Shown piece after piece: positions 7,641-64,000 of a stretch of 64,000 bases of DNA (position 1 is the first letter of the stretch; the number at the start of each line of letters is the position of its first letter). The DNA is from Polytrichum commune (lineage: Eukaryota; Streptophyta; Polytrichopsida; Polytrichales; Polytrichaceae), in contig OX485807.1 in NCBI GenBank assembly GCA_950295325.1, forward strand, positions 15,839,001 through 15,903,000. Direction: 5' to 3'. The notes under the pieces are model-generated. The model was not told the origin of the DNA and did no database searches. It worked only from the letters and a program-made list of their open reading frames with translations. A program made the position numbers and the translations under genes.

Positions 7641-7914
7641 GTCTTGCTAGGAAAATGGGTCATGACTTAGGGTTTTTTTTTATTTTTTTAAATGAATTTA
7701 AATGGGTGTGACTACCCTTATTAGGAATTAGTGTCATTAATTCTAGTTGTCTTGCTCGTGCCCCATTTACACCAAACTTTCCATCCAATTCTAGCCATGA
7801 AATTGTTGGGGATTATGTTGAGAAATAGATGTTGGCCCACCACTTTTCACATTATTATAGCCGGAGATGCCGATAGTTGATGCCAAAAGTGGCAGATGTG
7901 ATCAGCCCCTCAAG

Positions 7915-10459: not shown

Positions 10460-10462
10460 AAT

Positions 10463-10479
10463 TGGTATCAGAGCAGGTT
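10463..10479 (+). other. Primer-binding site for initiator Met-tRNA
   Basis: TGGTATCAGAGCAGGTT lies 3 bp after the 5' LTR. TGGTATCAGAGC is the usual complement of the 3' end of plant initiator methionine tRNA used to prime reverse transcription. Confidence 0.93.
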
Positions 10480-10486
10480 AGATGCC

Positions 10487-23873: not shown

Positions 23874-24992
23874 TTATTTGTTTGGACCTGTACACTTGTT
23901 GGCGTTCGGATCCCACAGCCACTGCACTAAAAACTTCTTCCCATTCGCTCCATTCATGTTGAACGTGGCCCCCGTTTTGCTCTTCAACAACAACCCGGAG
24001 TAACTTCCCCCCGCACCGGGGCCATAAACTCCCTCACAGAGATCCCCGATCTCGTTCGGCGCCGCAGGAGTATCCCCTGCGTACCAGGAATTGATGAAAG
24101 GATTACTTGCAATCTCAGCAAGCTCATGTCCCATGATACTGATCAATCCATCCAGCCCCGCATCACCGTTAGGGGCCTTCTGAGGTTTCACGAATCCATT
24201 CATGTAAGAAGGCACCGCGAAAGGGTAAGCACATGTCCCCGGACACTGCTTCCCGGAGTCCCCTACCCAGGCGTAAGGTAAGGTGTGTCCAACCATCGAA
24301 GGAAACGTGAAGTAATGGAATCCACATGCAGAGCTGCAGAAATCTTGCATGTAAACCTCCTCACCCGTCAACACCAAATACAATCCCCCGCCGGAGTCCA
24401 CCGGCAAGCTTCCAGAGACTCCCGGAAGCTTGTTCGGAACGAGAGCATTCTTGATTAGGGTTTGGATGGAGAGACGTGTGAGACTCTTCCCCATCGAACA
24501 GGCTCCGTCCCATCGCTCACCTGCGATTCTTACTGAACCTGTGATGCTCTTCCCTGTTTGATCGGTGTATAGATTGAGGATTGACCACCAATCTTTCACC
24601 GAGGGGCTTGGTGCGGGTGCGGAGATCGAACGAAGAAACTCCCGAATCACTTCTTGCTTCCAAGCTGGCCAGCCTCCGTACCAGATTATGTAGACTGCGA
24701 TGCCATTGGTGAGTACCGGGCCGTTATGGTATTCCATGGTGACGGTGAAGGGAGTTGTGACTGCGGAGCCTACCAAGCTGCGGCGAGCACTTGCCGGACC
24801 TGCGAGGGATTGGTTCATCTGATTCTTTGATATTGGCCATGGCCGGAATCCGTAGGGGTTGCGCTTGTGTTTGTGGCATTTGGGTGCTTGTGGTTTCTCG
24901 GAGTCGATTCCCGCTCTGGCAGACGGAAATAAAGAGCATGTCGCCAGCAGTAGCACGAGTGCACATATGAGATTCATCCGCGCTGTTGACAT
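23874..24992 (-). CDS. EXORDIUM/PHI-1 family secreted protein
   Basis: A single-exon gene of 372 aa from ATG 24992 (MSTARMNLICALVLLL). EXORDIUM/phosphate-induced-1 proteins are apoplastic proteins linked to cell expansion and brassinosteroid or sugar responses; their biochemistry is unknown. A hydrophobic signal peptide (about residues 6-27, ending SARA) precedes a basic linker. Then come the family blocks: YHNGPVLTNGIAVYIIWYGG, VKDWWSILNLYTD, GGLYLVLTGEEVYMQDFC, ACGFHYF, MGHELAEIASNPFINSWYAG, EIGDLCEG, TFNMNGANGKKFLVQWLWDP, and the C-terminal Cys. An ATG at 24977 would start directly at the signal peptide. Upstream in-frame ATGs to 25118 would put about 40 non-signal residues in front and are less likely. 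Full length for the family, no lesions. Upstream DNA is tandemly duplicated. Confidence 0.95.
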   Translation of the reverse strand: MSTARMNLICALVLLLATCSLFPSARAGIDSEKPQAPKCHKHKRNPYGFRPWPISKNQMNQSLAGPASARRSLVGSAVTTPFTVTMEYHNGPVLTNGIAVYIIWYGGWPAWKQEVIREFLRSISAPAPSPSVKDWWSILNLYTDQTGKSITGSVRIAGERWDGACSMGKSLTRLSIQTLIKNALVPNKLPGVSGSLPVDSGGGLYLVLTGEEVYMQDFCSSACGFHYFTFPSMVGHTLPYAWVGDSGKQCPGTCAYPFAVPSYMNGFVKPQKAPNGDAGLDGLISIMGHELAEIASNPFINSWYAGDTPAAPNEIGDLCEGVYGPGAGGSYSGLLLKSKTGATFNMNGANGKKFLVQWLWDPNANKCTGPNK

Positions 24993-25007
24993 CTTTTGAT
25001 AAACCAT

Positions 25008-25325
25008 CTGTGAGGGAGGAAAGCAACGAGAGTGATGAGGACAAATAATATCCAAGGCATTGATATCTGAAAGTAAACAGAGCATCTTTCCAATATTTTT
25101 GCTTCGCAACCTATGCATAACTTCGGAAGAATGGACAAGGCATTAAGATTTGACAGTTTTCATGAAACATCTGTGAGAAAGAGCCAACGGGAGTGATGAG
25201 CAGAAATGACATCCAAGGGATTCAAATCTGAAATTAGACAGAAGAGCTTTCGATCCTTCGTGCTTCATAATCTATTGCTCTATGTATAACTTCAGAAGAA
25301 ATGGACAAGCCATTGAGATTTGAAA
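25008..25325. repeat. Tandem duplication upstream of the EXORDIUM gene
   Basis: Two copies of about 160 bp, 25008-25165 and 25170-25325. Each has ATCTGTGAG, then AACGRGAGTGATGAG, ACATCCAAGG, CTATGYATAACTTC, ATGGACAAG and ATTTGA. A third, more degenerate piece appears at about 25570-25640. They lie in the probable promoter or 5' leader, so they may duplicate regulatory sites. Confidence 0.75.
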
Positions 25326-41899: not shown

Positions 41900-44800
41900 A
41901 TGACAGCGATGGGAGGGTCAAGGGCGATGGTGGTGGTGGTGCTGCTGTATGTTGCAACGAGTTTTTTGTGTGGAGTGTGTGCGCAACAACCTGTACCAGC
42001 ACCGGTAGCCGGAGCAGGAGCTCCTACTGTGGGGACGGCGCCAGAGAGTCCGACGATGGCTCCTGCGCCTGCACCGGGACCTCTATGGCCCGACTGCGCA
42101 GGCGTGGACATTGTGTACGTCACCAGCTTCACCGAGAAGATTTACCCGTTCCTCAACGACACCCCGTGGCTGCAGCCTTACAAATTCGAGGCGTCGGTCA
42201 CTCTGACCAACATGGGGTATTCCACCGTGGAGGGGTGGGCTATGGGCATCGAGTACCAGCATCACGAGGTGAGCGATTCCGAAATCTTGTTTCCGTTGCG
42301 AAAATCGCTCATTGGTTTCTTTAACGTGAAGAAATTCCTTCTTTAGGATTCTCTTCCCACCAAAGATGATCTTGTCGTACCTGTTCATTCCATCGGTGGA
42401 TGTGTCAGAATGACAGGTTGAGTGTCTCGGTTTCAATCTGCTCGAAATTGAGGTCTTAGTACAACAATTTGCTCCAGTAACTCACCTGGTACCTCACCTT
42501 TGGTGACCAGTAACCGAATTCTCAAGACACGGATCCATTCTCGGTGGTTTCTTCCATTGCAGATTCTTCTCAGATGGCTTGATGCTACCATTTGGCTATG
42601 GCAGCCTGTGTGACTCGTTTGCTTTGGCTTAACTATCTGTCGTGTTACTTTCTTAACGGTTCAGTGGTAGCTTTTATCGGTAAATGTTGTTCGAACATCG
42701 ATGCTAACAAGGATATTGCTACGTGTGCTCACTTTTGTTTTCGTGCCCTGTGAGTAGTAAGAGGGGAGCTTCGGAAATGAGGTCTTAGTACACTTATTAC
42801 ACAACAATTTGCTTCTTTCCCGTGAGTTACCTCTGGAGATATCTCAATGCAAGGATCCACTGTCAAGTGGAACTGATGACGGAAGTTTCATCTTTGGGGA
42901 TGTTGTGGAAGGAAATGGCTTCTTCCTGTCATGCAGATTGTTGTCAGATGGCTTGATGCCACTATATGGCTCTGGCCGCATGTGTGATTCATTTTGCTTT
43001 AGGTTGACCCTCTTTTTTGATTCTGTAGTTTCCTGGTTACCTTCATCTGTGAGAGTTGTTCGAGCATCGGTACTGACGAGGACACTGCTACATGTGCTCA
43101 CCTTTGTTTCCATATCTGTGAGTAGTGAGAGAGGAGTTTTCGCAATTGCGTGCACTGTGTAATTCGCCTAATTCTCACTCGTGCGCTGTCAGATTCTCGT
43201 TGACGCTGGAGCCGGAACCGTGGTTTTGGCTAATGGAGCAGCATATCCCGTAGACGTATCGAACGGGACGATTCTCTCCGCATCTCCACCTGACAATTTG
43301 AAGAACGCCATTGAGACTGCTGGAGACTTGACGCAGGTGCAGAGAACGTTCATCATCACAGGAACTGAGTTCGGGGTAAAACGAGACCCCATGCCGCTCA
43401 ACATCAACATCACAAACACGGGCTACAATTGCAGTGCTGGAAAGCTGTATGGAAGTACGTTGCGTAACTTCTCACTTACTTACGCTTCCATTCGTAAAAC
43501 TATCCTCGAGAATTTTCCCAGCAGAGCTCGATGTGTTGTTGCATTACAGAAAATCCAATTTAGAGAGTAATGTAGGTTCTCATAGTGTACATTTCTTTGT
43601 TTTGTTTGTCGCAGATAACACGATGCATACTTGCTGCCTCGAGCCGAACAGTAACATCACGCTAACCGGTGACAACATTTTCCTCCCCTCCGAAACGGGA
43701 AACATCACCATCACCTACGACGTTTCGCAGGCTTATACGACCAACTACCAGGCGCTGGTGAGCGATGATGAACATTTGGCGAGATTTTGAAATGTTGAAG
43801 TTCAGTCACCTCTTCGGATGTGTTTATGTGGCAGATAGTAGCTAGGACTATTCTACCTGATATGGTTCTTGCTCACACCTCATGTGATGAAAATTGTAGA
43901 TTAGGGTGACAGTAGTCAGGATTCTTCCACTTTGGATATGGTTCTCACATTGTTATGATGAATATTGTAGGCTTTGTGGCTGTAGTCAGGATTCCTCTAT
44001 TTGATGTGATGCTCACACGTTGCGCAATGGCAATTGCAGGTTACAATTTCGAATGACAGCCCGATTGCGCGAATCGACAACTGGAACCTCTCCTGGACAT
44101 GGCAAGAGGGGGAGTTCATCACTCAGATGCAGGGAGCACAGACACGATATGCAGATCTTCAAGTTTGCTTGGATGGAATTGCGGGGCAAACCTACCAAAG
44201 CGGCCTAGACGTCAATAGGGCGGTGAGTTGTTCCGTAAGTCCTCAGATTCTTGATCTCCCCGTGGACAGGACCAACGACACTTCCATCGGTAACGTCCAG
44301 TACTGCTGCAAGAATGGGACTATCTTGCCTGCGATCATCGACCCTTCGAAGTCGAAGGCAGCTTTCACTATGATGGTCTACAAGGTCCCCCCTGGCAACG
44401 CCAAGCTGAGCCACATCGTTCCTCCAACGAGCTTCAAAATTGGAGATGGCTACTACCAGTGCGGTTTGCCCCGGCTAATCGCACCGACGGTTTACCCTGA
44501 TACAAACAATCTGCTCCGCTCGACTACAGCTTACAAGACTTGGCAGGTACGAATATCATCAACTAGTCGATGCAACGCAACGAGCGTTCGAGGTCAACAG
44601 AACGCTCTGTTTTTTCTCCTCCTGTTGATCGATCGTTGATCTGCTCTTATTGCCTCACTACAGGTTACAAGAATTGGTAACTATGGTTTTCATCGACTAT
44701 GCAATGCAACGCAACTCATGTTCTGTCTGTCTATCTGTCTGTCTGTTTGTTTGTTTGTTTTTTTTCCCTCCTGCTTCAGTGATTGTTCTTTGATCTAATC

Positions 44801-45703
44801 TTATTGGTTTACTGCAGTTTACAAGAATTGGTAGGTATGATTGTCAAACGAGACAATGAAATAAGACGCAGCCCATTTACTCTGTCTTCGGGTATCGATT
44901 CTGGATCTGATATAAATGCACCGATTGCTGTGATGCAGGTCACTTGCAACATCACGGGCGAAGTGAAGAGGACTCCGACGTGCTGTCTTTCTTTCTCGAA
45001 CTACAACAACGATTCAATTTCACCTTGCCGCACCTGCGCTTGTGGGTGTCCTCAGGCTTCTCAGCCTCCGGTGTGTTCCACCAACGCTTCCGCCATGCTC
45101 CTTCCGTTCGGCGCCTTAACCCTTGCTCCGGTGAATCGAACAAACCAGATACTTGCCTGGGCCGGTCTGACGCACAAGCCGGTACCAAACCCTCTGCCGT
45201 GCCCAGACAACTGCGGTGTTAACATTAACTGGCACATCGTCTCCGACTACAGCAAAGGATGGAGCGCGCGCATGACGCTCTTGAATTGGTCGAACGTGAC
45301 CTACCCCGATTGGTATGCCGTCGTCGAGATGGACAAGGCGTATCCCGGTCTGCAACAAGCATACTCCTTCAACGCGACAAAGGTTCCTGCGGCGTTAAGC
45401 AACTCCACTATAAACAATACTTTCATTTTGCAAGGCCTTCCTGGATTGAATTACTTGATTGCCGAGCAAAACTTGACATCAGGGAAGCTGCAATCCATCA
45501 TTTCCTTCACCAAAGGTCCTACTCCTGGGATCGAAGTCATGCTTGGAGACGGGTACCCTACCAAGCTCTGGTTCAACGGCGACGAGTGTGTGCTCCCTGA
45601 ATTCATCCCAACCAGTGCAGCAACGATGCGGATAATGGCGCCGACAATCTTGATGAGTGCACTCGTGTCGGTGATCGCTGTCTTCTTCGTCATGTTAGGT
45701 TAA
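41900..45703 (+). CDS. COBRA-like GPI-anchored cell-wall protein (COBL7/COBL10-type)
   Basis: COBRA proteins are GPI-anchored at the outer plasma membrane and guide cellulose deposition in expanding or tip-growing cells. Five exons join in phase to 681 aa: 41900-42268, 43193-43454, 43615-43757, 44040-44546, 44939-45703, all GT-AG. The protein has a signal peptide (MVVVVLLYVATSFLCGVCA), a Pro/Ala linker of about 30 residues, an N-terminal extension domain with DIVYVTSF, and then the COBRA domain (DNWNLSWTW, VDRTNDTSIGNVQYCCKNGT). The hallmark Cys cluster reads CCLS rather than CCVS near residue 442, and the Cys-rich region is SPCRTCACGCP. Many N-glycosylation sequons and a C-terminal hydrophobic tail (IMAPTILMSALVSVIAVFFV) fit GPI attachment. 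Length and the extra N-terminal domain point to the COBL7-10 branch. The start is the ATG just before the signal peptide; a second ATG lies three codons on. Confidence 0.95.
42449..43145 (+). repeat. Tandem duplication filling COBRA-like intron 1
   Basis: Two diverged copies, about 42449-42776 and 42779-43145. Shared in order: GAGGTCTTAGTACA, ACAACAATTTGCT, TCAGATGGCTTGATGC, GTTGTTCGARCATCG, CTGCTACRTGTGCTCAC and GTGAGTAGTRAGAG. Confidence 0.85.
43828..44039 (+). repeat. Three tandem units of about 70 bp in COBRA-like intron 3, each ending in an acceptor-like site
   Basis: Units end GATGAAAATTGTAG (43899), GATGAATATTGTAG (43970) and CAATGGCAATTGCAG (44039, the used acceptor). Each contains GTAGTCAGGATTC- or GATATGGTTCT-like blocks. 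Confidence 0.8.
44531..44840 (+). repeat. Repeats of the exon 4/intron 4 boundary in the COBRA-like gene
   Basis: TTACAAGACTTGGCAG at the end of exon 4 recurs in the intron as TTACAAGAATTGGTAAC (44665) and TTACAAGAATTGGTAGG (44821), each preceded by CTACAG or CTGCAG. The following CGATGCAACGCAACGAGC recurs as TATGCAATGCAACGCAACTC. A (GTCT)n/(GTTT)n run sits at 44725-44767. Confidence 0.8.
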
Positions 45704-47176: not shown

Positions 47177-50112
47177 TTAGGCAGCGAGCAAAGGGTTAGG
47201 GTTTGCTTCACGCTTGTCGCTCCACGGCATAGCTCTCCACATCTTCTCCCAATTCTTTTTCTCTCGCACCTTCACCAAAACGGCAGCTGCCATCCCGCAA
47301 CCGAATCCTAGGGCGGCATTGTTGGTTGTAAGACTCACTGCAGTGACAGCGAGCATCACAAAGGAGTTGGATCGTGATGTCATGTCGCGGCACGCCATCG
47401 CCAGTTCCAGACCTGAAAACAGCAACAACACACCGAGAAGAGCGATGGGGAACTTTGACAGGATTTCCAGGAGAGAGGAGCCCAGTATCAGGGACAGGAT
47501 GATTTTGGCTGTGCCAAGGAACACCACAGATGCGCCAGTTCGTGCCCCGAATCTGTACTGACCTGCCAAGCCACCACAACCATGGCAGGTTGGCATCGCT
47601 CCGAACCAGCAGCCCACGAGGTTCATAAGCCCTACGCTTGTCTGCAGACATGCAACAGAAATTCGGTATAAAATTTCAGCTCCACCAAGAAAACTTGGAC
47701 ATACTCTCTCTATTTTGGAGCTGCAGTCGGAATCACTGCTACTTCATTATAGTTTATGAGGTTTTGGCATGCAGTTCTTCAAGCAAGATAAGAACAAGAC
47801 AGCGTGGACGCTTAAACCCTTGGGGCATATGGAGCTACTTGCAGCAATTTCAACCGGGAATCTGAGGATTCTAGTTGCTCCTTCAGGTTGCTCAATTGTG
47901 TCAATGGGTGCAATTTTTTACTGTATTTTAGCTGCAGGTGAAATCGTTCCTACGTCAATGTGGATAATAATACTTTGCCAATCGACCTGCAAGGAATACA
48001 AGAAGAAGACTGTGTGGATGGTACAACCCTCGGAGCATATGAAGCTACTACTTGTAGCAAGATCGGGGTTCACTCTAACTTCAACTGGGAATCTGAGGGT
48101 TCCCAAGTTCCTCCCACAGATTAATCAATTGTGTTGATGGGTGCAATTCTTGACTACTTCTAAGCTGCAGTTGAAATCATCGCTACTTCAATGTAGACTA
48201 TGATGTTTTGCAAATTGACCTGCAAGCAAGATAAGAAGACGCTGTGGACGCTAAAGCTCTCGCATATGGAGCTAGCCACTTGCAGCAAAACTGGGGTCAA
48301 CTCTGACTTTAACGGAGAACTGAGGATTTCATTTCCTCCTCCCTCGGGTTACTCGATTGTGTACGGGTTCACGGGTACAATTTCTAACCTTATCAATCGT
48401 TCTCAGGTTTGCAATTGTTCTATTTCTTCGTAATGTAGACAAGAATTTAGCAAGAAAGAAAGTGTTCTTCACTGATGCATATCGACATCGCAAAATAAGC
48501 ACCAGAATGCGAGACGGAGAAGTTCAAAGCAAAATGGTGGCAACGTAGGTGAGCTACTCACCGAGACCCTGACGGGTGTAACTGCAGTCTTCGTTGGAAA
48601 CAAATCATTTGAAAGTTTGACGACGGCGATAACAGAGTTTAAAACCGAAAGTGGAAGCTGCGGAATGGCGCCTCGCACGAACCCGATTCGCCAATCTCTT
48701 CGGGAAATGTGCACCACCTGCGGCGTCGACGGTCCGACTCGAAGTCGACTGCCAATACTCGGGTCGCGCACAAACGCAAGAACAATTCCGAGCAACAACA
48801 CGGAGAGCGCCGTGGGGATCATAAAAATGCGCATCCATCCCTTCCTCGACCTCTTTCGCGCTTCCTCTTCGTCGTCGGCCTCGCCTTCATACGCTTCAAT
48901 GTGAACTCGATCTTTCGTAACCGCGCCTTCGCCGGAGCCGCTGACGAGAATTACGAAACAGAGTGCGAAGATGGCGAGCACCTTTCCGTCCAACCCTAAC
49001 CACGCGCGGTCGCCGAGGGTTTTGCCTTTGGCGAAGTCCTGGTTGTAGAGCATGTACTTCACGGCGGCGATTGCGAAGGCTAACCCCTGCGAGACCTGGA
49101 TGCCTCTTACAACCGCTAGAGGGATCAAGAGGTTCACGAGCGTCATGAGGCCCGTGAGGCCTAATCCTGCGAGAACGGCGCTTGTAGTTATCCCTGCTGC
49201 CATGATTTGGGGGATGGTAAGAGGGTCGCCTGGGGTAATTGCAACAGCGGCGATCGATTTCATCGGTTGCACAGGCATCGGCACGCCGAATAGGAGACCT
49301 GCAAGAATAGAATAGAAAAGAGAATTATGTGGTGTCAGCCGGACTGTTGATGAAGAAATTCAAGCATGTCATTGTGCAGGATGTGCAAGCTTGCACAGGA
49401 AGACTGAAATTGGGGATGTCTGGGGAATCTTAATCAACATTTCCATGAGAATCCCCTTCCTACCAGAATCAATTGTTGTACCACATCCACAAAAACCTCC
49501 ACTCAAGCGATGACTCTGCGGACCCATGTATAAAGAATTTGTTGCAAGTGTCCCAATTCCAAATGCTCACACCTGTAATTCTTGAGCTCTCTACACAAGA
49601 ACTTCCTCCTACGCAAATTTTCTTCCTACCAGGATCAATTATTCTAGAACATCCACAAGATCCTCCACTCAAGCGGTCACTCTTGGAGCCATGTTACATA
49701 ATCCTTGCAAAATATGTTGCACATGTCCCCATTCAAATCCTCGCATCTGTAATTCTTTGATACGTCTGCACAAAAAAGCTAATTCTCAAACTACAATCGG
49801 AAGATAGGTACATAGACAGACTGACAGACAGACAGACATGGAGTTTTCTGAGCAGATTGTGGGGAAGCATTCGGGGGAAACTCAACCTGTGATGATGTTG
49901 TAAGCTCCCGTGAAAAGAAGAGTGGTGCCAAGGTCGAGACCATTGACGAGGGTGAGTGCAATAACAATGGGCACGAAGGTGCCCAAATCACCCAAACAGC
50001 CATTGATCTCTTCCCACAAGCTCTGGTACCGGACATTGTTCTTGATGTCCGCCCATGTCGTGGCTACTCTCCCTGCAGGCTGTCGCGGTTCGGTGTTCTG
50101 TATCTCCGCCAT
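47177..50112 (-). CDS. MOT1-type molybdate transporter (sulfate-carrier-like)
   Basis: High-affinity molybdate carrier family, distant relatives of SulP transporters, on endomembranes, mitochondria or plasma membrane depending on the member; supplies Mo for cofactor synthesis. Three exons on the minus strand, in phase: 50112-49887, 49298-48562, 47641-47177, giving 475 aa, usual for the family. Two signature motifs are clear: GVPMPVQPMKSIAAVAITPG (from about residue 80) and PTCHGCGGLAGQYRFGARTG (about 338). Most of the rest forms about ten hydrophobic segments (for example FALCFVILVSG, IALLGVLLLFSGLELA). An acidic and basic cytosolic-type loop (EGEADDEEEARKRSRKG) sits mid-protein. Start MAEIQN is 8 codons after a further upstream ATG and has the better N-terminus for the family. 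Both introns are filled by tandem duplications. It converges with the COBRA-like gene. Confidence 0.94.
47770..48430. repeat. Three tandem units of about 210-235 bp in MOT1 intron 2
   Basis: CAAGATAAGAACAAGAC, CGTGGACGCTTAAACC, GGAGCTACTTGCAGCAA, GGGAATCTGAGG, TCAATTGTGT and GGGTGCAATT recur in order from about 47782, 47990 and 48222, with substitutions. Confidence 0.85.
49455..49785. repeat. Tandem duplication of about 163 bp in MOT1 intron 1
   Basis: Copy 1 from about 49459 and copy 2 from about 49622. Both have CTTCCTACCAGRATCAATT, ACATCCACAA, CCTCCACTCAAGCG, GCAARWRTTTGTTGCA-like, TGTCCC-ATTC-AAT and CTGTAATTCTT. Confidence 0.88.
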
Positions 50113-51130: not shown

Positions 51131-53438
51131 CACACAAAAGCACACAATATCACACAATATTCTTTGGATGGCACCCTTACATGCAGCTTAGTTTAGCTTT
51201 GCAGGCAGTTCCAGATGACCCAAGAAGCATTTGGTGCTGGTATGACGAGTGAGGGAGAGAGGGAGTCTATTTGAAAGAATCTCAACTATTTATGTAAAAA
51301 GCTGCCATGGTGGCTCCTGTGTGCCTTGAAGGGTCGCCCGGTCGCCACATCTGATGAATCTCTTGTCCAAACTCTTTAGAAATTAGGGCACAACTTCATC
51401 AACACACAGACAAGTATCTGCCGGGTTGATCCCTCCATGGAAGCTAAATTTGGACTTCTTACAGATTTCTTTTCATCAATCTGTGAATTGGATTGTAGGT
51501 TACCTCAAGTGGCTGAAGGTCGAAGATCTTCTAATAAGTTAAACCTTTAACAAGCATGTGAAGACCTGTGTGCTTGCTGCCTAACTTAAATTTATTGCAC
51601 AAAAGCCATTGCCATACAGATTCCATCATCCATGCCTGCTTCTAAGATAATGAGAAGCTTTTCTTTCATTTTCAGTGCAATCTGTCCATTCAACAACTTT
51701 GAAGCATTCTGTGCAACGACTTTACCTTGCCAAAGATGTATGGGGCAAACATACCGTATATATATAAAGCAATCTGCACTAACGTAGATGGGTCTTAATT
51801 GGCTACTTTTTCCAACTAGTCCACTTTCTCTTAGGCTATGAAACATGCGATGATTAGCAAATTATCCAAATCGAGGCCATAGCCATTTTCTTCATGATTT
51901 TTGAAGCACACATCAATTTCTTATTCATTTACAAAGTGAAGATTCTCATGCTCAATAAATGGCCATACAAGCATCTCCCAAATTATGTTGATAATCGAGT
52001 TTAGAGTGGTTATCATATTTTGAACATGCAATCCAATCTCTTTTAAACACATGTGTTTTTAGCATTCGTTCTTGGATCCACACCTAATCACATACTACTC
52101 AAATATAAGTGTCCAAGTAAGGAAAGTAGCCAAATGATGACTTTCTTTACGAATCTGAAAACAATGCATTTATCCACTTGCTGCCCAAGATGCTTTTTGC
52201 ATGGAATCAGATGAACAACCATCAAGTGATCCTATGTGACTACTATTGTGCTACGATTGTGAGTGAGGGTATAACCCTTCCATGTGCACAAAAAGGCACA
52301 TATTCTATACTCTAGTGTAGTAAGTACGGACGGGGCGAGATGACTTGCTCTTTGAGTTTGGTCCCCACCAATCTCTCCTAAGGTAAAAATGCAATCAACT
52401 ATATCATAACATGGAAGTTGATTCCACTCCAGAATTAGAATAAGATGTCCAAATTTTTTGTAGTGAAGCTCAGTTGGGATGAATCAACCACTAGTATGTG
52501 TGGACAAGTTTTTATTCTATCCCCTTTACATGGGTAAGATACAGTATGTGAGGCCCCATCTTTTGTAACCATGTCCATATCACAATGTCTTACTCAAGAT
52601 TATTTCAAGCGTGGATGATCAAAATAACTTCAAATGCTAATATTGCTTGCATGTCATGATCAAATGACTCGCTCTTTGAGTTGCCCCCCCCCCTCTAGCA
52701 TGCGCCCTCTAGTCTTATCTAAAGTGATGGGGGGGGGGGGAGGTTTGCTATACCACCTTTACCTTGGTAAGATTGGTGGGACATCTAACCATGGCCTTGT
52801 TTACATGAGTGGAAATGCCTTTTTGCCATGTTTTTCTTGTAAGGCAACCTTAAATGGTGTCTAACATGTATAGATGCAAATTCAAGTTTCAAATGCACAT
52901 ACTTCGAAGATACCCATTTAAGGAAACCGACGAGTGGAAATTTAACTATCCATAATATATTCATATTGATTCCAAGAATACTAAGTCCAATCCTCAAGTT
53001 CCTCATTTGGAGTTGCTCACCAAAATGTACTATCTTCTTCCAAAACAAAATATGCGGATGTAAGCAAACTGGAAGGAAGCAAACCAACAACAATGTCCAC
53101 TCAAGCAGCCTAATCCACCTTATCAAGTTGATGTGCCTCATTCAAACACTACACTATTCATGGTATTTAGTGTCACTTACTCTATTTTGAGGCATATAAC
53201 ACTATATTCGTTAATTGGAGACTTTGGAAAGTCTCAAAATAAATTGGACCCGTAGTTTCGGATGCGAATATTGTGAACGTAGCGAACATGGGGAACATGG
53301 GGAACAATGGCAACATAATGTTTTAAAGATCCATATGTGATGAATATATATGTTTCTAAATATAGTAATTATTCAGTTGATAATCAAAACTATGCCAACA
53401 CAATATTCCAATGACACGAAATTGCAAATTAGCATCTG
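51131..53438. other. Intergenic, no gene recognised
   Basis: Contains a short duplicated block (GACTTGCTCTTTGAGTTTGG near 52341, GACTCGCTCTTTGAGTTG near 52665) and C- and G-runs near 52685 and 52730. Near 53145-53175 there is a family B-like end (TGGTATTTAGTGTCACTTAC). Confidence 0.45.
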
Positions 53439-53630
53439 CAATATAATTATATAGTTTAGGGTCCACATCCGTAAAAACACAGACATAAAAAACATTTGGA
53501 TTCCACATCCATAAATCAATGCATCCATGCAATATAATTATATAGTTTAGGGTCCACATCCGTAATAACACAAACATAAAAAACATTTGGATTCCACATC
53601 CGTAAATCAATGCATCCATGCAATATAATT
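53439..53630. repeat. 91-bp tandem repeat (2.1 copies) just 3' of the transposase-like gene
   Basis: Units begin CAATATAATTATATAG at 53439 and 53530; a third partial copy begins at 53621. Each unit contains TTTAGGGTCCACATCCGTAA and GGATTCCACATCC, that is, half-sites resembling the upstream palindrome arm TCCGTAAAC. Confidence 0.92.
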
Positions 53631-53745
53631 GTAATCTATAAAATTGCTATAAAATGTGTCTAATATAGTATTCGACCCCAATGTCATATATTTTATGAAA
53701 AACCAATACACATTCAAATATCTTTGGTCCAAACCTACGTCAATA

Positions 53746-56700
53746 TCATTCACCATCTTCATCTTCTGCTTCATTTCCATTCTCGACATTGTTTTCTGCA
53801 GCAGCAATACGTGCCAAGTTGTCTTTGGCAAAATCTATATGTTTTTGGGGGATGGTCATTGTTTCAGTTTTGGAACCTTTGCGTGGTTTCCAAGCACAAA
53901 GTATGGTATCCGTGTTTATCCATATTGGTTCGTATGCTGAGTCCATTGTCCATTTGAAACCTTTTTTCGTGTCCCACCCTAAATATGTGCGGAGCACATT
54001 TTGATCTTTGGTGCTTGGACGGCAATATTCCACCTCAATTTGACGAAAATTTGGGCTAGTTAGAACAAAATTTGGTGATGACAATGCTTTCACCAACCAA
54101 ATCGGTTTAGGATGTTCCTCATCTCCAGGACGTACGAGGACCATATAACCTTCGTAGCAATCAATAGCCACACAAAATGATGGAGCCGGGCGATTACGAG
54201 CAGGGCCAACATAATAGTCGTCCGCCGCGAACTCTTCACGAACGTCCCCATTGTTGAAGAACATGGCCTCAGATTCCACGATTGTCACTCGGCTTAGTGG
54301 CCAAAAACCTTGTGTCAAACATGATGGTCTATCGTCTTCGGGTGCTAGCAACGCTGAGCGGATGCGATCCCAATACGCAATCAATGGTTCGTGGGTATCC
54401 CGAACACGTCTTGTGATGTCTTCCTCGCACAAATCTTTCCAGTACTCGATGAATCCAGATATACCTTTGATGATTTCTGGTCCATTCCTCATGGGGTTGG
54501 GTTTGCAGGGCTTCGGCTCCCCATCAGGTAGCATACATTTGCCATCTTCGTTTTGGCGCCATACGAGTATCCCTTCCTCTGGGCCCCAATTCGGGGAGGT
54601 ACACAAAACTTTGAATTGCATGGCCGGCAGACCATCATCACGCATATAGAATCGGAATTGTTGAGCCTTGGTATGGCCCACTAAGCGGTCACCTCCCTTA
54701 AGAATGAATGGTTTGATAAACGATTTGAAATCGGGCACTTCTTCAATCAAATGCGGGATGACTGGCACATTATCCAAATCCATGTACGATTTCATGAGAA
54801 GAGGAATTGTGGGAAAATCCTCCTCGTGCAACTTCATACTCCAACGTCCGAATGAAGCGTCAATGTCATCGTGCGTGTGGCCAACCATCAAAAAAGACAC
54901 AAACACTTCTTTGAAAATGCCCTTGGCTACGAGCAATGACCAAAAACAAAATACGTATCGACATTTGTTGTCCTTGGCACAATTGTCAAGTTGCACGTGT
55001 AGAGTTGGAGGCAAAGGTTTAGCAAGAACGGGTTGTTCAGGCGGTTCTTGCAGTGAAGATAGGCAAACCTCCTTCCCCTCTAGCACAGCCTCATAAATCG
55101 GTGTTGTTCCACATCCAACAAAAAGAGCACGAGAGGATGATGTGGGCGGACTCTCAAGATCTCGTAGAAGTTTTGCAAAAGACCCTACGGTATGATTGGC
55201 GTCGCCATGATAGAAATCCAAGCCATAATGTGCATATTTCACGTCCACATGACCATGTGCGATCATACCTGCATTTAGCCACACAAATCGTATATATGAA
55301 TAAAATTCAAAAATTTCCCCAAGCAAGCAAAAAAATGTACACTTACGGACGTACATCCGTAAATCTTAACAATGAGTATGTGGGCGCGCAAAAAATAAAT
55401 GTGAAAACCAACAAACCTGTGACAGATATTGGAAGCTTGAAATATCCATCTGTAGCCTTTATTTTCCGCGCATAACAAGGGCACGCCGTCTTTGCATGGT
55501 CCATTTTGTCATGAATGATTGTCAAAACCTCATTCGGCCTCATTATCGATAATGCGCGATTCTTATAGTAGTCTTGACGGTGTGCCTCCTGGTTGTTGAC
55601 ATGCTCAATGTATTTCAGTTGATGTCGGTTGTGGGACTCAGTCCCAATGGGATGTGCATCTCGAAGGCCTTTATATTTCTCACAAGCAGAACACCTGGCA
55701 AACTTATCCCCAGGTCTCTTCGTAATATATTCTGCGAATTGTTGATTCTTGATCACACTCAATTTTGACAACGAAATCGGCCCACATCTAGCCTTTTCGC
55801 CAACTTCATTAACATCCATAAGTATGTTCTTCCATTTTTGTCCCTGTAGGCAAAACCATCTGAACAACCTTTTCCCCCGACGGCAGAGTTCGCATCTTGT
55901 GTGGCATCGCATCTGCCAATGGCATAATGATGGTTGATAGTGTTGCAGCCGCTTGGAGTGTTGCCTCCCTAGGCTTCTTTGTGCCAGAGTTGCCATGGAA
56001 CCGAGAACGGCGTCCTTGCATTGAGTAGTTCCGGAACCTATAAAAATCTGCCTTTGAAACTGCATGTATAATGTACCATGCCTTGCAACATATCTCGACA
56101 TTTTCCAAGGTCACAACCTTACGACCTTCGACATCAAGATGCATGTTGCGATGGACTTCAAGTTTCTTTGCAGATCGCATACGAAAGTCCGCGAGCCACA
56201 TCTCTTGTCTCAAAGATTTGATCTTGTCACGGGGAAATAGTTGGCAACATCTCTTTGCACAACAATCATTTGTTGCTACGGACCTAATAGATGCATCTCC
56301 CAATGTTTGATATCGACGACGTTGCGTGGGTTCACGAGGCAAACGAACGGAATCATATTTACGCCGACCCATTCTAGGGCGCATTGTGGAGAACAATGCC
56401 GATTGCATTTGATCAAAACGGCGGGAATGATTCCACAAGCTGACACCATCATGAAGAACACTGCGCAACGGCCGTCGACGAAGAGAGAATCTCCAACCAG
56501 AAGGCACTTCCAACGGATGTAAGGAATTCAAAATGCACACCCCCACATCTTCTTCCCCAAGGGGATTTGCATCAATACAATCCGTAGGATTCGAGTTCCG
56601 ACAAACACCATCGGCCACGGGGACGCCACATCCATTGAGGAGGACGACATCAAGATCAATCCACTGCTCCCGGAAATAACCCTCACATGGTGGGAGGAAT

Positions 56701-56822
56701 TCATCCTCTACATTGGCGACACCAATTGTAGTTTCTTGTTCCACGACAACTTCAAACTCGCTAGCATAGCTTGACGCTTCCGACGAAAAATCAACCCCAC
56801 TATCACTGACGTTGGAATCCAT
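53746..56822 (-). CDS. DUF7869-type putative transposase, two exons, one 1-nt frameshift
   Basis: Exons 56822-55417 and 55268-53746 on the minus strand, joined in phase 1 across a 148-bp GT-AG intron (ISVT-G split codon). With one base of the A-run at 55835-55839 skipped the frame encodes about 975 aa. The start (MDSNVSDSG) has context GCCATGG. Visible in order: an acidic N-terminus; a Cys cluster (CCAKRCCQ); EICCKAWYIIHAVSKADFYR; CSACEKYK with a following His/Tyr-rich region; NEVLTIIHDKMDHAKT; VQLDNCAKDNK; then GHTHDDIDASFGRW. The D-x-N and H-x-HDDID block is the hallmark of the DUF7869 family, widespread in repetitive copies in animals and plants and thought to be an RNase H-like transposase (general knowledge plus inference). 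The ending is acidic (EAEDEDGE). A CpG-rich palindrome lies in the intron and seven more lie just upstream of the start. The frameshift may be a real lesion or a homopolymer sequencing error. Confidence 0.85.
55342..55364. repeat. Palindrome copy inside the transposase-like intron
   Basis: TTACGGACGTACATCCGTAA, a slightly changed copy of the array palindrome, within the intron 55269-55416. Confidence 0.85.
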
Positions 56823-56966
56823 GGCCACTACAAGAGAGCCAAATGAAGAGTATGTCAAAATATCCCATTCAATAAATGTCATGGATAGCCCTAACGCTTA
56901 TTATTGTCAATGAAACACAATGTGAACACTAGTGGATTTCATGGCTTGAAAACAAAGCTAGCATTG

Positions 56967-57804
56967 GTATACGAACGTGCGTCCGTATACCTCCATGTAA
57001 TAACATCAGCAGCGCAAGCACACGCGCATACGGATACATTGATGTGTTCATAGGAGCGGAAAGGAGGAGGCAAAAAAAACATCACTGGTTTATGGACGCG
57101 CATCCGTAAATCGGCTCGTACACAGAGTTCAGGTAAACCCTCAACCAAAACAAAGGTATACGGACGCGCGTCCGTAAACATCCGTATGACAAACATCAAT
57201 GTAGTCCTAGACAGAGGTTCAAGGAAGCAAGAGGTCCTCCAAACACGGCCATGTATACACAGGCCTGACGACTCATGAAATTTGAAGAGGTTTGAACACG
57301 GCCATACGCGCTTCCTAAAATGTTTAATCACTGTCAAATTATTATAGTATGACACATAGGGTGATGTAGGCTAAGGGATGCGAGCTCCCAACCCTTCATG
57401 ACCGTACAGTCTCACTGCAGTCTCAGTCTACATGGCACATTATGGTAACAAAGATTTCCAGGTTTACGGACGCGCGTCCGTAAACCTCTGTGGACCTCAT
57501 TCCTAGCATAAAGACAGTGATCGATGGAATACACCTCTGTGGACATCATTACTAGCCTAAATACAATGTCCAACGCGCCAAGGGGTTTACGGACGCGCGT
57601 CCGTAAACTTCCATGGTAATATATTGTCGTTGTGGTGCTCTACACGACAGGTGGTGTAGGTGACCTACAGAACTATAGCACCAAAGGTATGCAGGTTTAC
57701 GGACGCGCGTCCGTAAACCTCAACGTACATGAGTATTGGCTCAAACAAATAAAGGTTCAATGAACCAATATGTTTAAGGTTTACGGACGCGCGTCCGGAA
57801 ATCT
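56967..57804. repeat. Palindrome array 1, seven copies upstream of the transposase-like gene
   Basis: Copies at 56967-56992, 57088-57112, 57156-57179, 57461-57486, 57585-57608, 57693-57720 and 57777-57804. The consensus is GTTTACGGACGC followed by its exact reverse complement. The fourth and sixth are perfect over 26 and 28 bp. The first lies 145 bp before the start codon. Spacing is irregular (about 68-306 bp). Confidence 0.95.
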
Positions 57805-60800
57805 CCGTGATTTGCGGCGTGAAAATAGGATCATTGCACCAGAAAGGATAACTATCCGAAATTTAAAAAAAATCAGCACACTACAAGGAGAGTGCAACCC
57901 AAATACAAATTGTGTACCCTAATGGGCTCAGGACTTCGGGTTTAGGGTATAATAGGTCCATTGCAATAGGATCTTTACCTGCACAAAATCTGTAGCAGGA
58001 GCACACTACAAGAGCGCAACCCACAGCTGAGATGCAAAAAGAGTCCCGACGGTGGGGGGTGTCCCCTTAAGTACTGATCGCTTTACCTTGGATCCGTTTT
58101 CCAACATAGGATACCAGCCACCAACTATGTCCTATAAATACAAACCTAGCATTACTACATTCCGTGTGCCAGCCTTACAATGGAATGTGTATTCATGTGG
58201 ACTACATGCATAGACCATGAGTCCACATAATGACAAAGAAAAAGGCATCTATGTATTTGTGGTATACAACAAAGTAAATTGGCTAATATTATATGAGCAA
58301 TAAACATTGTTGAGGGGTGGTTTATAATATTGGAGTACCTAATATGAAGAGTACATTTTAAAAAACGTAGACAACAAAATTAAATTAGCAACAACAATAG
58401 TACATGGAGTATAAAAATACATGTAATCAAAATTAAATTAGCAACTACTTTATTGTTTTGCATACAATGTAATGGTATTGACCATAATATCATGCTATCT
58501 CCTCTCATCTTGCATTTAATATTATAATTACATTGGCCACCACCTAACCATCCAACATTTTTAATTTACCCACCTATACACACCTATACATAATTGTATT
58601 CATATCTGATACAGAAACTTTGATTACCGTAAGGCCATGATAGTAGCACATCTATTGTCCTAGGTAACATGGGTTGCATTAAATTCAATATTATCAATTT
58701 TCTCTCTAAACCTTAGGGGCCCCTTCCGTACATCAACATTTACTTCAAAAAAACTAATTATACTAGCCTTCTTCATGTACTATACGTGAGGAAAAACATA
58801 TTTTAGTACCTCATGTACATTACCTACATTAATTAATACTCAAACAATACCAATTGTTGCTCCAAGTAGCATTCTTACCCTCAACCCTAAACCCTATAAC
58901 CACCCAAACCTAAACAAACATGTGGACATAGAGATGCAAGCATGGTTAACTGAACAACTCCTGATACATGTCAAGGCTTAAGTGGAAAGTAATTCAAAAC
59001 AAGCAAGCAAACAATTATACCAATTGTTGTTCTACGTAATACTATTAACCCATAAAATATAATGGACAGAAAGGGAGGGTAGGGTATCTAAATAGTAATA
59101 AGGCAACCAATATTAAGTCGGTGACACAAGGGGGATACTCTTAACCCTAAACCCTAAACCCTAAACCGTATAAACGACTCCCGACTCATGTCAAGGCTTA
59201 AAATTCTCTAAAACAAAACCATCAAGATTTCAAAAGTCAAGCAAATTTATGTTTACAAATTATTCTTGAAGACATGGTAAGTGGTGAAAAAGTAGGTGAC
59301 ATAGAACAAAGATTTATCAAATTGTGAATGGCAATCCGATATGTGGTCTTAATTTGGCTAAGGAAAAAGGTACATGGGTTGCGTAACCTTACCTTTTATT
59401 TTTTTAATCTTTGTTTGCCTGGGTAAAATCCACCCCTTAGAGGCAAGTACAAGATTTAGCCGAGACTTGTTATTCTTTGATGGGATACAATATGAAAACA
59501 ATTAAGCCTTCAAAACATTTAAGATCATCAAAGTTATGTTCTAAGTCATATTTATCCATTTGCTTTAAACCTTTACTTTTGAAGATAGGTTTTGAACATC
59601 ATATATTGGTATTCTATAATCGAATACTTAACACAACCATACATGTCGTGGAAACAAAACTCCAATATAAACAACAATTTGCTACTACTTATAGGCGATA
59701 ATACAAGCTCATACCTAGGTTTGGAAGGATTGCATGAATCCTGAAGGTTGTTTAATGGACAAGAGGGATGTAAATTCAACACCTACCCATTCCTTTTGTT
59801 CTAATACAAGCTTAGACCTATGTGCAGAGGGATTGAATTAACCCCTAACGTTGTTTAAGATATTATAAGCATTTGATCTTAACCCATATTATCTCGATGT
59901 TTGGTTTTGTTAATTGTGTTTCAAACATGCTTAATTTAAATATCATTAATAATGATATTCACATCAAAGCATCCCAAGTGTCCAACTTCAATAAAGTCCC
60001 CAAGTTGCTATTGATAGTATAATTTAGGTTGAAAATCCCCTTTCACAAATTATTGCGATAATTGAGGGATTCATAAGGGTGCAGGGGTTTAGGGTTAATT
60101 GAATTTTTGGCCAATGGGTATATTATTGTCCCAATTGCATTTGAATCCCACCTTTGTGGTAAAAAATTACAAAATGCTTTATCTTTTTTATTATTGATGT
60201 TATTTAATTGATGCCAATGACATAATATACAATGAATAGTTAATATAGCATTCCATAATTCTAAATATTAAGCAATACTACTTATAATATTTAGTGTACT
60301 AGTAATTTAAAGCCCGCTTACCTTCATATTACAACAAGTCCACAAAGAAAATCTTACACTTGAGTTACTCAACCTCAACCCATACTTCAAAATTATGTTT
60401 ACTATTGGGCCTAGATGGTTATTATAATTTGAGCATTGAGATTCCTTTATTTTTGGTCAGCAATTGTTTTTGGTATTCGTTTTTGGACTCACCACATACA
60501 ATCCATCCTCTATAAATGTTATGCTCTGGAATATAATTTTCCTTACATTTATTGTGAGTTAACATTGTAACAACTATAAAGGGAGCTTTTTGAATGCTTA
60601 ACAAATTTGATTCATTACAATTATGGAGGGAGATTTTTGCAAAATTATAAATTATAAAATATGTGTATCAATCACAATATAACCCATATTAATAATTTGA
60701 TCACAAAAGTCAAATTTGGTGGCTTTTGCCACTTTGAAAGGTTGTGACTCAATGTAATGGATGTCATCTCACAATATTGGATGTAGTTCGTAGGTTAACA

Positions 60801-61058
60801 TTTATAAGTGGCAAATTAACAAAGAGGGGAATAAATTATTCTTAACATGTAACAAAGTTTACATTCTAGTTAGCAATATGAGAGGAGTACGAATTTGTTA
60901 ACAAATACAATTATGAGTTAACATGTGGAAGTGTAACATTTATCGAGGGTGGACTCTAGCAATCACAAAATAGACCAATAGACATATGCCACGTAAGGGT
61001 TACATGTGGCCTTTGGGTGCGGGTTGATGGGACGTCTAGGTAGGGAGTGGATGTGACG
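57805..61058. other. AT-rich DNA between the two divergent genes
   Basis: About 3.2 kb with no recognisable gene and no palindrome copies. It contains short telomere-like runs. If the flanking genes form one element, this is its interior. Confidence 0.5.
59145..59167. repeat. Interstitial telomere-like repeat (CCCTAAA)3
   Basis: Three consecutive plant-type telomere units; a shorter match (CAACCCTAAACCCTATAA) lies near 58880. Too short to mark a chromosome end. Confidence 0.9.
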
Positions 61059-62851
61059 TTTAGGGTTTAGGGTTTCGATACACTCCCTTGCTCTTTGCTC
61101 CTTTCGCTCATTTTTGCTCATTTTGCTCCTTTCGCTTACTCCCTTTCGCTCCTTTCCTCCTTGCCCACCATCGTTCCTTTCCTCCTCGCCCTTGCTGCTC
61201 CTCCTTCTCCTCCTTCTCCCTTGCTACTATTACTGGTCCTCCTTCTCCCTTGCTGGTCCTCCTTCTCCTCCTCCTCCTTCTTGTTGTTTATCCTCTTTCT
61301 CCTCCTCCTTGCTCTTCCTTTGTTGTTTCTCCTCCTCCTTGCTCTTAGTTCCATAAGAGCGCCAGGAGCTCCAGGCAGGTGCTTTTTTCTTTCCCTCTTT
61401 GCTAGATGTGCTGTTCCAGGTGCTAATTAGGTGATTTGAGTTTATGTATTGATGCACAAGAGGAGGATTGTGAGTATTGTGTGAGCATGCAATGTTTTGT
61501 TGCACTCACAATTGCAAGTAACATCAGAAATTGAGTAGTTTTTTGCTTGCAGTCTCATTAGGACATTAATGGAGTAGTTTCAGTTGTTGCAAGGGTTTTA
61601 GGGTTGGAGTATTTCAGTTGTTTCAGAGTGCTCCTCCTTTCAGTTTGTAATTGTCTTTACTTCACTTGAATTCACTTTTTCCAAGTTCTAATAAATCATA
61701 TGTTTTACTTTGTTCACTTCTATCTGATGTCAATGTTCAATCCAGTGCAATCTTTGTAGTAGGGTTTTTTTGGTGGGTTTGATGCATTTTAGGAGCAACA
61801 CACAGTTTAGTTGAATCTTGAATGTGCACATTGCATTACCAGAGGTTTCTAACTTCAATTTTATTGTTAATTTGCAGTCTGTCCTAGCTGCAGCTATGGT
61901 TGAGCAGCAAACATTGTACAAAGGTAAGTGTTTCTAGTACATTGCAAATTGAAATGGAACATTCTTCTTAGTTTGGAGTGTAGAATCTGCTATTGCAATG
62001 CAACACCTGATATATTCTAATTTGGAGTGCAAATCCATGTTGCATTCCAAGTAAAGATGAACATTGCACATGAATGGAATGCAACAAAAAACTTGTTCCG
62101 AAAATTTCGGAGCAATATCCAGAAACACAGTAATTGTGCAAAGTAATTAAATTCAGAGTAATTAAAAAATGGCCTGAAGTTTACGGACGCGCGTCCGTAA
62201 ACTTCAGGGAACCCTGGGAATATGCATCGCACTATATGTGAACAGTTTACGGACGCACGTCCGTAAATTGTAGATATATTTAAAAAGAACTATTTAAAAA
62301 CATGAATGATAAGTTTACGGACGTGCGTCCGTAAACTTGAAATATCTAAGTACAATAAATGTGGTACATGATACATGTGCAGAGTTTACGGACGCGCGTC
62401 CGTAAACTAGGCAGCAAAAGCTATGAAAATCTCAGAGTATAATACATGTCATGGGTTTTCAAAATAAGTTCTACAAAATATACAAGTTCTACACAAAAAA
62501 AATGAACTTATTTTCCAAGAATTTACGGACGCACGTCCGTAAATTAGGTCTACATAATAATAATAAACATATTATATTCATGGAATATAGAAATAGAAAC
62601 TTTTGGATGATATATGTGCAGAGTTTACGGACGCGGGTCCGTAAACTCTGCACATATATCATGTATGTGATTTCTTTTTATAAGATATCTCAAGTTTACG
62701 GACATGTGTCCGTAAACTTGACATGTACTATAACATAATACATAACCACATTATATAGGAAAGGGTACGCAAAGGTTTACGACCGCGCGTTCGTAAGATA
62801 GGCTCTGCATCCCCAGACCTTAATACTGACTTGTATATTTTACATTTGCAG
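61059..62851 (+). promoter_or_regulatory. Promoter and spliced leader region of the ParB-like gene
   Basis: A double telo-box (TTTAGGGTTTAGGG, 61059-61075) is followed by a pyrimidine-rich CTCCTT-type stretch (61086-61350), a layout common in plant promoters and 5' leaders. An apparent leader exon at 61878-61923 (acceptor TTTGCAG, donor GTAAGTG) holds the short ATG frame MVEQQTLYK. If joined to the next exon at 62852, that frame reads a further nine codons and stops at 62878-62880, overlapping the main start. It would thus be an upstream open frame that limits translation. The intron 61924-62851 contains the second palindrome array. Confidence 0.5.
62173..62797. repeat. Palindrome array 2, eight copies upstream of the ParB-like gene
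   Basis: Copies at 62173-62208 (perfect over 36 bp), 62245-62268, 62311-62338, 62383-62408 (perfect over 26 bp), 62520-62545, 62607-62662 (26-bp perfect arms around 4 bases), 62691-62720 and 62774-62797 (degenerate). The core is as in array 1. Centres are mostly about 66-80 bp apart, with gaps of 137 and 102. All lie within the apparent leader intron. Confidence 0.96.
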
Positions 62852-64000
62852 ATGGAATCTACAAAAAGACCCGCTATTGATTTATTCGCAGAGCTTGTCC
62901 ATCCTCCGCTTCCAAAAGCCATCAAAGACATAAGCCACAACGACCATTACAAGCCACGCGAAGACATTGTAGATAACTGGACAGTTATTGTAGAAAAAGA
63001 CGAAAATGATATATTTGTCCTTAGATTTGCCTATCAAATAAAAGCAGATATACATGAATCCGAGAAGTGGATGAAGGTAAAAAACTGGACAGTAGAGTGT
63101 GCGGTAGCCCAAGGTGATTATGTTGTCATTGACCTTGAAAAGAAAAATGATAGGATCACATTCATTTTGCACGAGTTGTACCATCCGTTCAACAAAAATG
63201 AATGTGAAAATGCCAGCCCAGATGCGTCTTGCTTCAATTTACAGAATGAATTCCAAGACTATGCATGCAATGCACCCTGGACGGGTAAACGGCTTGGACG
63301 TCTCTTGAACAATGTGACAAGAGTAAATGGGGCATTACTGGAAGCCAAGAAAGGAAAGGCGAAAAAACCAGTTCCTGAACGACCTAAACGTGTTCCTAAA
63401 CACGTGCCAGAAGCCTCGAGACCCTCACAGAGTGGGGCATCAAGAGGGAGCAAGCAGACTAGTAAACGCTCCCACTCACAGATGGAGTCGTCAGGGCTAA
63501 CAGAGGGTCCAGATGTGAGCTCTACTCTTACTGTCGCACCACTCCTGAAGAAAGGACAACGCCCTGACGCCGAACTTTTCACAAAGATTTTCCAAGAGTT
63601 CGACGAGAAGACAAAGGGCTGCTGGCCACTTGGAAGATATTTCACGTTTGATGTGGATGTCTACAAATGCCACAAGGGCACGGAGAGTATGAATACTCGT
63701 GCCAAAGAAGAGACCGGGGTGTGGTGGCAAATGAATAACATTATGAACAACCCCAAATTTGATAGGCAAACCATATGTGTGACACCAAAGGATCCTGTGG
63801 TTGAAGTCACAGCGCAAAACTGGCCAATTCTCAAAGATGGAGAGTTCTACATAGTCGACGGCCAACATAGTGTGATGGCTGCAAAAGCTCTCCTAGAGGA
63901 CGATGAGTGGAAGAGCCCTTTGAAAGAGACAATCCGATACTGGAAGGCATTCGTCGTCCATTCCAAAGACTCGAACCAGCTCATCGCAATATCTGCCTTC
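62852..64000 (+). CDS. Protein with a ParB/DGQHR-like motif, 3'-partial
   Basis: Open for 383 codons from ATG 62852 to the window edge with no stop. The start follows directly after a TTTGCAG acceptor. The N-terminal 130 residues contain two W-rich repeated-looking segments (DNWTVIVEKDENDIFVLRF, KNWTVECAVAQGDYVVIDL), suggesting a beta-rich DNA- or protein-binding fold. Next is a basic Pro/Lys/Ser linker (KAKKPVPERPKRVPK...SKQTSKRSHSQ), likely nuclear-localising. Then comes a domain with RPDAELF, GRYFTFDVDVYKC and, near residue 335, GEFYIVDGQHSVMAAKAL. That last block resembles the DGQHR / GERRxRAA box of ParB- and DndB-like proteins (nucleotide- or DNA-binding). Assignment rests on this motif only. 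It is divergent from the transposase-like gene and shares its palindromes, so it may be an accessory protein of the same element. Its end lies outside the window. Confidence 0.7.
   Translation, partial: MESTKRPAIDLFAELVHPPLPKAIKDISHNDHYKPREDIVDNWTVIVEKDENDIFVLRFAYQIKADIHESEKWMKVKNWTVECAVAQGDYVVIDLEKKNDRITFILHELYHPFNKNECENASPDASCFNLQNEFQDYACNAPWTGKRLGRLLNNVTRVNGALLEAKKGKAKKPVPERPKRVPKHVPEASRPSQSGASRGSKQTSKRSHSQMESSGLTEGPDVSSTLTVAPLLKKGQRPDAELFTKIFQEFDEKTKGCWPLGRYFTFDVDVYKCHKGTESMNTRAKEETGVWWQMNNIMNNPKFDRQTICVTPKDPVVEVTAQNWPILKDGEFYIVDGQHSVMAAKALLEDDEWKSPLKETIRYWKAFVVHSKDSNQLIAISAF

Follow-up and report, generated by a model that had tools for sequence, protein, structure and literature searches.

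The DNA transposon Sola1-1_Ec32 of Ectocarpus and similar transposons of green and red algae encode accessory proteins that join a ParB-like part to an N4/N6 methyltransferase, according to the accessible text of the report describing them (PMC12477816). In the VANDAL elements of Arabidopsis, as outlined in the available portions of two reports, the protein VANC uses a short motif to bind within its own family, in introns, in intergenic regions and in the noncoding parts of the ends; these targets grow by tandem repeats, related families carry other motifs, and VANC expression removes DNA methylation (PMC5735166, PMC10398659). Here we analysed a 64-kb stretch of the genome of the land plant Polytrichum commune (contig OX485807.1, C5:15839001-15903000; hereafter the window), which holds the left two thirds of one large DNA transposon. 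The strongest new fact is a family-by-family pairing: three transposon families of this genome each encode their own version of an accessory protein, and each carries a private palindrome.

Results

The palindrome of the window family is a 24-bp, two-fold symmetric site made of 11 nt, a 2-nt spacer and another 11 nt. When the whole window was scanned with GTTTACGGACGCGCGTCCGTAAAC at up to 8 mismatches, 16 sites were found, all at 6 or fewer mismatches: a single one at 55341 and arrays of seven (56967-57802) and eight (62179-62798). No site at up to 8 mismatches occurred in the rest of the window, and none closer than 8 mismatches in five dinucleotide shuffles of it, a control by which a chance origin was rejected. 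An earlier note on this DNA, made from its letters alone, had placed about sixteen palindromes (7+1+8) there and none elsewhere in the window, as the scan now bears out. The 408-Mb genome (64 contigs) has 1147 exact matches to TTTACGGACGNNCGTCCGTAAA and none to its reversed control. Among the matches listed, 50 distinct places, all on contig C1, form 7 clusters with zero lone sites; 45 of them (five clusters) lie within five further copies of the window family that were read (A to E; the window copy is W), where both main genes are present, some of them broken. The same note had asked whether the palindromes always sit beside both genes: they occur genome-wide (1147 exact sites), but among the matches listed no site stands alone, and 45 of the 50 places fall in elements with both genes.

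Other families were found via Pfam DUF7869, which gave 150 scored matches from 1492 first-look candidates in the genome and two large uniform groups; one full element was read for each of the families F502 and F692. The F502 element (C5:934623-951221) has ends similar to those of the window family and the target site duplication (TSD) TCAT. The F692 element (C2:68579972-68604942) has different ends, ATGGGGATATTAACTAAAATGAG; a second copy on C3 is 99.8% identical to it at the ends over 3.4 kb, and the TSDs of the two copies are CCTA and CTTA. The gene set and its orientation are common to all three families. Each family has its own palindrome, with about 20 to 44 copies per element: AGTTTGGGTCG-NN-CGACCCAAACT in F502 (9231 exact genome sites) and GCCCACGGGTG-NN-CACCCGTGGGC in F692 (644 exact genome sites), both with no occurrence of the reversed control. 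In the W, C, F502 and F692 elements, none of the three half-sites occurred in another family at up to 5 mismatches. By eye, the three palindromes appear related in their inner parts (GG.YG-NN-CR.CC). The spacer is CG in 97 of the 134 window-family sites (six related copies), takes 11 values across the 44 sites of F502, and is TT, AA or AT only in the 21 sites of F692. Tandem growth is visible in F502, where 16 register positions stand 78 bp apart. In each of the three families most sites fall in predicted leader introns and other introns flanking the divergent promoter region, which itself is spared. In F502 and F692 the sites reach out to the terminal parts, including four imperfect F502 sites no more than about 1 kb from one end.

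The proteins also differ between families, to unequal extents. F502 and copy C share 65-66% identity in the transposase, 33-36% in the main pieces of the accessory protein and 41% in a NIF-type phosphatase; for F692 the values are 33-44% (transposase pieces), 21-22% and 31-36%. The F692 accessory protein was recognised at E 1e-12 with copy C and 4e-17 with P0001 (27-kb search). With 33-66% identity between families in the transposase against 21-36% in the main accessory-protein pieces, the accessory protein diverges faster by this measure.

The element itself was delimited from the window, 20 kb of rightward extension and five other regions. It is a 16.4-kb DNA transposon with sharp ends, at window positions 53198 and 69632 (C5:15908632), and continues 5.6 kb past the window. 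Its inverted ends are 28 bp long and start AACACTATATTCGKTAATTGGAGACTTT; at up to 2 mismatches the genome has 1040 matches to the end pattern and 0 to its reversed control. Both ends and a 4-bp duplication were read in five of the six window-family copies (ATAT, TTGT, CACT, ATGG and TTTA in the printed flanks); for copy E, one end only lay within the stretch fetched. Counting the window family, F502 and F692, all eight copies with both ends read have a 4-bp TSD, and inverted ends together with this duplication show that the element is mobile. The rightward extension proposed in the earlier note thus yielded what it sought: the end of the element (69632), inverted repeats and the second copy of the target duplication (69633-69636). 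Sola1 elements have a 4-bp TSD as well. For Sola2, the available part of the description gives 4-bp AT-rich TSDs (PMC3627910). The duplication found in eight of eight copies agrees with Sola in its length of 4 bp, and Pfam recognises the transposase as DUF7869 only. The features of W, in window positions, are as follows:

53194..53197, left target site duplication ATAT (partner at 69633-69636, outside the window)
53198..64000, part of the transposon inside the window (right end at 69632)
53198..53225, plus strand, left terminal inverted repeat AACACTATATTCGTTAATTGGAGACTTT
53746..55268, minus strand, exon 2 of the transposase, coding for the DUF7869 domain (PF25273, 1.5e-39)
55269..55416, minus strand, transposase intron with the palindrome at 55341 inside
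55417..56822, minus strand, transposase exon 1 (in W the frame is shifted by a 1-base insertion)
56831..57980, minus strand, predicted transposase leader intron with 7 palindromes (56967-57802; splice-like ends in 6/6 copies)
57981..61923, palindrome-free divergent promoter and leader-exon region
61924..62851, plus strand, predicted accessory-gene leader intron with 8 palindromes (62179-62798; donor region aligned in 4/6 copies)
62852..64000 (to 64138), plus strand, accessory-gene exon 1 with the DGQHS box (remaining exons beyond the window)
67631-68350, same strand as the accessory gene, NIF-type phosphatase frame (PF03031, 47.7 bits; beyond the window)

Three genes are recognisable in the element: a DUF7869 transposase and, on the opposite strand, the accessory protein and the NIF-type phosphatase. 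The earlier note had proposed a single two-gene element; that one mobile element holds both genes and the palindromes was correct, and the restriction to two genes was rejected, the phosphatase gene also being kept in all three families. Copies W, A, B, C and D also share two additional frames at 68439-69320.

Within W, sites continue beyond the window at 64155, 65621, 65670, 67158 and two weaker places. Altogether 22 sites were found at up to 8 mismatches, 19 of them in predicted introns: 7 in the leader intron on the transposase side, 8 in that on the accessory-gene side, and 1, 1 and 2 in three other introns. The remainder comprise one in coding exon 3, one just after exon 3 and one weak site towards the right end. 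The 3943-bp stretch between the two leader introns holds zero sites at this threshold. The introns of the coding regions have GT and AG ends in all six copies, and the two leader introns are predicted from conserved splice-like ends. In the three shorter introns, comparison of copy group W/A/E with group B/C/D shows the palindrome columns to be better kept than the remainder. Sites inside coding exon 3 are translated (position 67158 in W; FGSxDPN in F502, by eye, at L027 about 3714-3806), so the tail of the accessory protein tolerates the palindrome.

The identification of the minus-strand gene as a DUF7869-type transposase, already made in the earlier note, is upheld by the Pfam match (PF25273, 1.5e-39). 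DUF7869 was the sole Pfam match of the transposase pieces, so no MULE (Mutator-like element) transposase was recognised. The nearest named relatives of the transposase are in Ceratodon purpureus and Physcomitrium patens, and the word DUF7869 was not found in the literature searched. The two exons are open over 975 codons in copies B and C. W carries a 1-base insertion relative to the five other copies, with a first stop at codon 338; stops also occur in A and D among the five copies judged (W and A to D). Copies B and C on C1 have other, more diverged copies of the DUF7869 transposase within a few kb (region coordinates 1547-4547 for B and 1521-5359 for C; about 52-87% amino acid identity, depending on the piece), pointing to nesting or local hopping.

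Three exons (62852-64138, 64256-65575 and 65773-67257) code for the accessory protein, which is about 1350 amino acids long. The gene is open over 1346 codons in copy C; in-frame stops occur once each in W (codon 386), A, B and D, at differing places, and several times in E. The protein is predicted to combine a weakly ParB-like box, an amino-methyltransferase fold with altered catalytic motifs and a charged tail. The DGQHS box reported in the earlier note is present, and the ParB resemblance proposed there finds weak, sub-threshold matches (phrog_1033 'ParB-like partition protein', E 0.017; Pfam DUF6551, E 0.03). By sequence, nothing significant was found against solved structures, and likewise against NCBIfam. 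No ParA partner ATPase was noticed by eye in the printed frames, part of which the Pfam search covered.

Beta-class N4/N6 DNA methyltransferases are defined by a catalytic (D/N/S)PP(Y/F/W) motif and a cofactor FxGxG motif. The exon-2 region is predicted to have the fold of this class because of its motif order and an exon-2 structure model. In an alignment of 66 exon-2 sequences (64 of 108 exon-2 relatives and two exons from the plant's own genome), the catalytic and cofactor motifs were not found; DFRxIPG and NVFGG[ST]K are conserved where they would be expected, the placement being by order.

The NIF-type phosphatase frame (67631-68350 in W; L027:2142-2984; L029:2705-3526) scored above the PF03031 gathering score of 21.8 bits in all four proteins scanned from the three families (43.1 to 54 bits). 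In place of the DxDG phosphatase motif, all printed copies of the three families have DLNG or DVNG, and activity is uncertain.

Divergence was measured for the copy pairs A-C and A-B only. The ratio of nonsynonymous to synonymous divergence (dN/dS) was 0.14-0.19 in the transposase, 0.13-0.15 in the phosphatase, 0.08-0.11 in accessory exons 1 and 2 and 0.31-0.35 in exon 3, showing that the genes are under purifying selection. Synonymous divergence was 0.80-0.87 in accessory exons 1 and 2, 0.40-0.47 in exon 3 and 0.17-0.24 in the transposase and phosphatase. As it is unequal along the element, the middle and the two ends have different histories, and the elements appear to be mosaics. Between copy groups, the stretch at about 57112-67030 (arrays, promoter region, accessory exons 1 and 2) has some four times the divergence of the ends at synonymous or neutral sites.

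Other repeats were seen in and around the element. Near the left end, a tandem duplication of 91 bp (53437-53618) contains half-site-like CATCCGTAAA words. A central piece of about 460 bp (60497-60955) recurs with 91% identity at 72974-73462, about 3.3 kb past the right end. Short CCCTAAA tracts, of plant telomere type, lie within the promoter region in all three families read (window 58876-59175; L028 1535-1569; L025 4631-5794). Elsewhere in the window, frames at 10325-14719 resemble by eye pieces of a Ty3-type retrotransposon, and Phi-1-like (23874-25142), COBRA-like (44783-45703) and molybdate transporter MOT1 (48469-49359) genes fit a land plant.

Discussion

We lean towards the reading, which we judge slightly likelier to be right than wrong, that the accessory protein binds DNA as a dimer and in a family-specific way, thereby marking its own element and probably keeping the chromatin there active against silencing. 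From the VANC-like sequence features of the layout, we infer that this protein would bind the 24-bp sites of its own family as a dimer and would coat its own element and that of no other family. The chromatin of the element would then be held active against host silencing, the methyltransferase fold having presumably lost catalysis. Protein and site would change jointly, and the families would stay independent.

Several observations weigh against this reading. The ParB-like domain is recognised from a short box and sub-threshold matches, and the full-length model of the protein (P0001 and nine further rows) was set aside at a predicted local distance difference test score (pLDDT) of 33.4. Pfam and PHROGs searches over the 66 exon-2 sequences recognised no methyltransferase, and none of 275 Foldseek matches of the exon-2 model reached E 0.001 or better (best 9.1e-3). 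The family comparison draws on a single full element each for F502 and F692, and among the 50 distinct places listed for F692, 6 are lone sites. The spacer is free in F502 only, hence it may be read in the other families. Finally, the transposase and the phosphatase also differ between families, so either could be the site reader.

Ordinary transcriptional control, in which the accessory protein or the transposase would regulate the two divergent genes from within introns and play no role in chromatin, is the rival we take most seriously, at perhaps one chance in several. It agrees with the position of both large arrays, which occupy predicted leader introns at the very start of the two divergent genes. 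However, W also has sites further along, in later introns, within exon 3 and past the accessory gene, those of F502 and F692 extend to the terminal parts, and tens of copies per element exceed the need of two promoters.

It is also conceivable, and in our view improbable, that the accessory protein methylates cytosine at N4 or adenine at N6 and, steered by its ParB-like part, puts a bacterial-type base modification on its own element, as proposed for its algal relatives. Here the conserved DFRxIPG and NVFGG[ST]K replace the catalytic and cofactor motifs throughout the 66 exon-2 sequences.

That the palindromes are transposase binding sites for excision, like the subterminal repeats of other transposons, seems to us very improbable. 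Repeated sites in transposons often serve the transposase, the transposases differ between families too, and the four imperfect sites near one end of F502 and the half-site-like repeats of W at 53437-53618 would suit a minor role of this kind. Against this, all W sites but one weak site lie at least 2.1 kb from both ends, the bulk being central, and one intact family member could need few sites only; a function mainly as terminal transposase sites is disfavoured by position. Of the roles suggested in the earlier note, end recognition in transposition is therefore unlikely, as the sites lie inside the element and for the most part within predicted introns, and segregation is unlikely because the element is a chromosomal transposon.

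An action in RNA, as intron hairpins affecting splicing or small-RNA production, is the most doubtful explanation of all: the sites are nearly perfect inverted repeats, mostly in predicted introns, but at positions 6, 7, 8 and 10 of the 134 sites in six related copies the inner change G>A, which breaks a G-C pair, is about as common as C>T, which keeps a wobble pair (36 versus 38, double changes included). The symmetry kept across families despite wholly different sequence is compatible with both DNA and RNA readings.

Beyond a role as family-specific binder, the accessory protein may represent a second, independently evolved class of sequence-specific transposon anti-silencing, in which a ParB-like protein with a retired methyltransferase domain reads family-private 24-bp palindromes, and protein and address co-diversify so that families coexist without cross-talk. 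We put this forward tentatively, at a little under even chances. Few systems by which plant elements themselves bring about their escape from silencing are understood in detail; VANC is one of them. If the proposal is true, it would supply target sites for the ParB-methyltransferase accessory proteins of algal transposons. The three families in one genome form matched pairs of protein and address, with 644 to 9231 exact sites each, and with them specificity, co-evolution and the effect on methylation become directly testable. The altered motifs also suggest that an element of a land plant kept a bacterial-type DNA-modifying module once the catalytic motifs of that module had changed.

En/Spm, a CACTA element, uses a two-protein TnpA-TnpD system with repeated binding sites for the accessory protein, and CACTA elements have CACTA ends and a 3-bp TSD. 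The present element likewise has repeated sites and encodes an accessory protein, but its ends are AACACT or ATGGGG in the families read, its TSD is 4 bp and its sites are mostly internal. VirB of Shigella is a ParB-related DNA binder. As a regulator that offsets H-NS silencing it offers an analogy only, being bacterial and involving no transposon in the available part of its description (PMC10653881).

The resemblance to VANDAL and VANC, as far as the available portions of those reports describe them, lies in dense family-specific motifs in noncoding parts, tandem growth, and joint change with an element-encoded protein. Unlike VANDAL, a MULE, the element described here has a DUF7869 transposase, another accessory architecture and a long site of two-fold symmetry where VANDAL has a short motif, and anti-silencing would apply to it by analogy.

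In architecture, transposons of the Sola1-1_Ec32 type are the nearest relatives. Judging from the accessible text of that report, both are giant DNA transposons (21.5 kb in Ectocarpus), with an accessory gene opposite the transposase strand and ParB-like and amino-methyltransferase domains in its product, in the plant protein a weakly ParB-like box and a predicted fold. In the titles and abstract beginnings of the literature searched, no palindromic target sites of such accessory proteins were reported, and the accessible text on the algal system describes none (PMC12477816), whereas here three families have their own palindrome arrays. The plant elements further differ in their apparently altered catalytic motifs, conserved NIF phosphatase gene and land-plant host. 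ParB-methyltransferase accessory proteins were thus already known from algal transposons; what this genome adds is a likely set of target sites for them, the matching of protein and palindrome family by family, and a host among the land plants.
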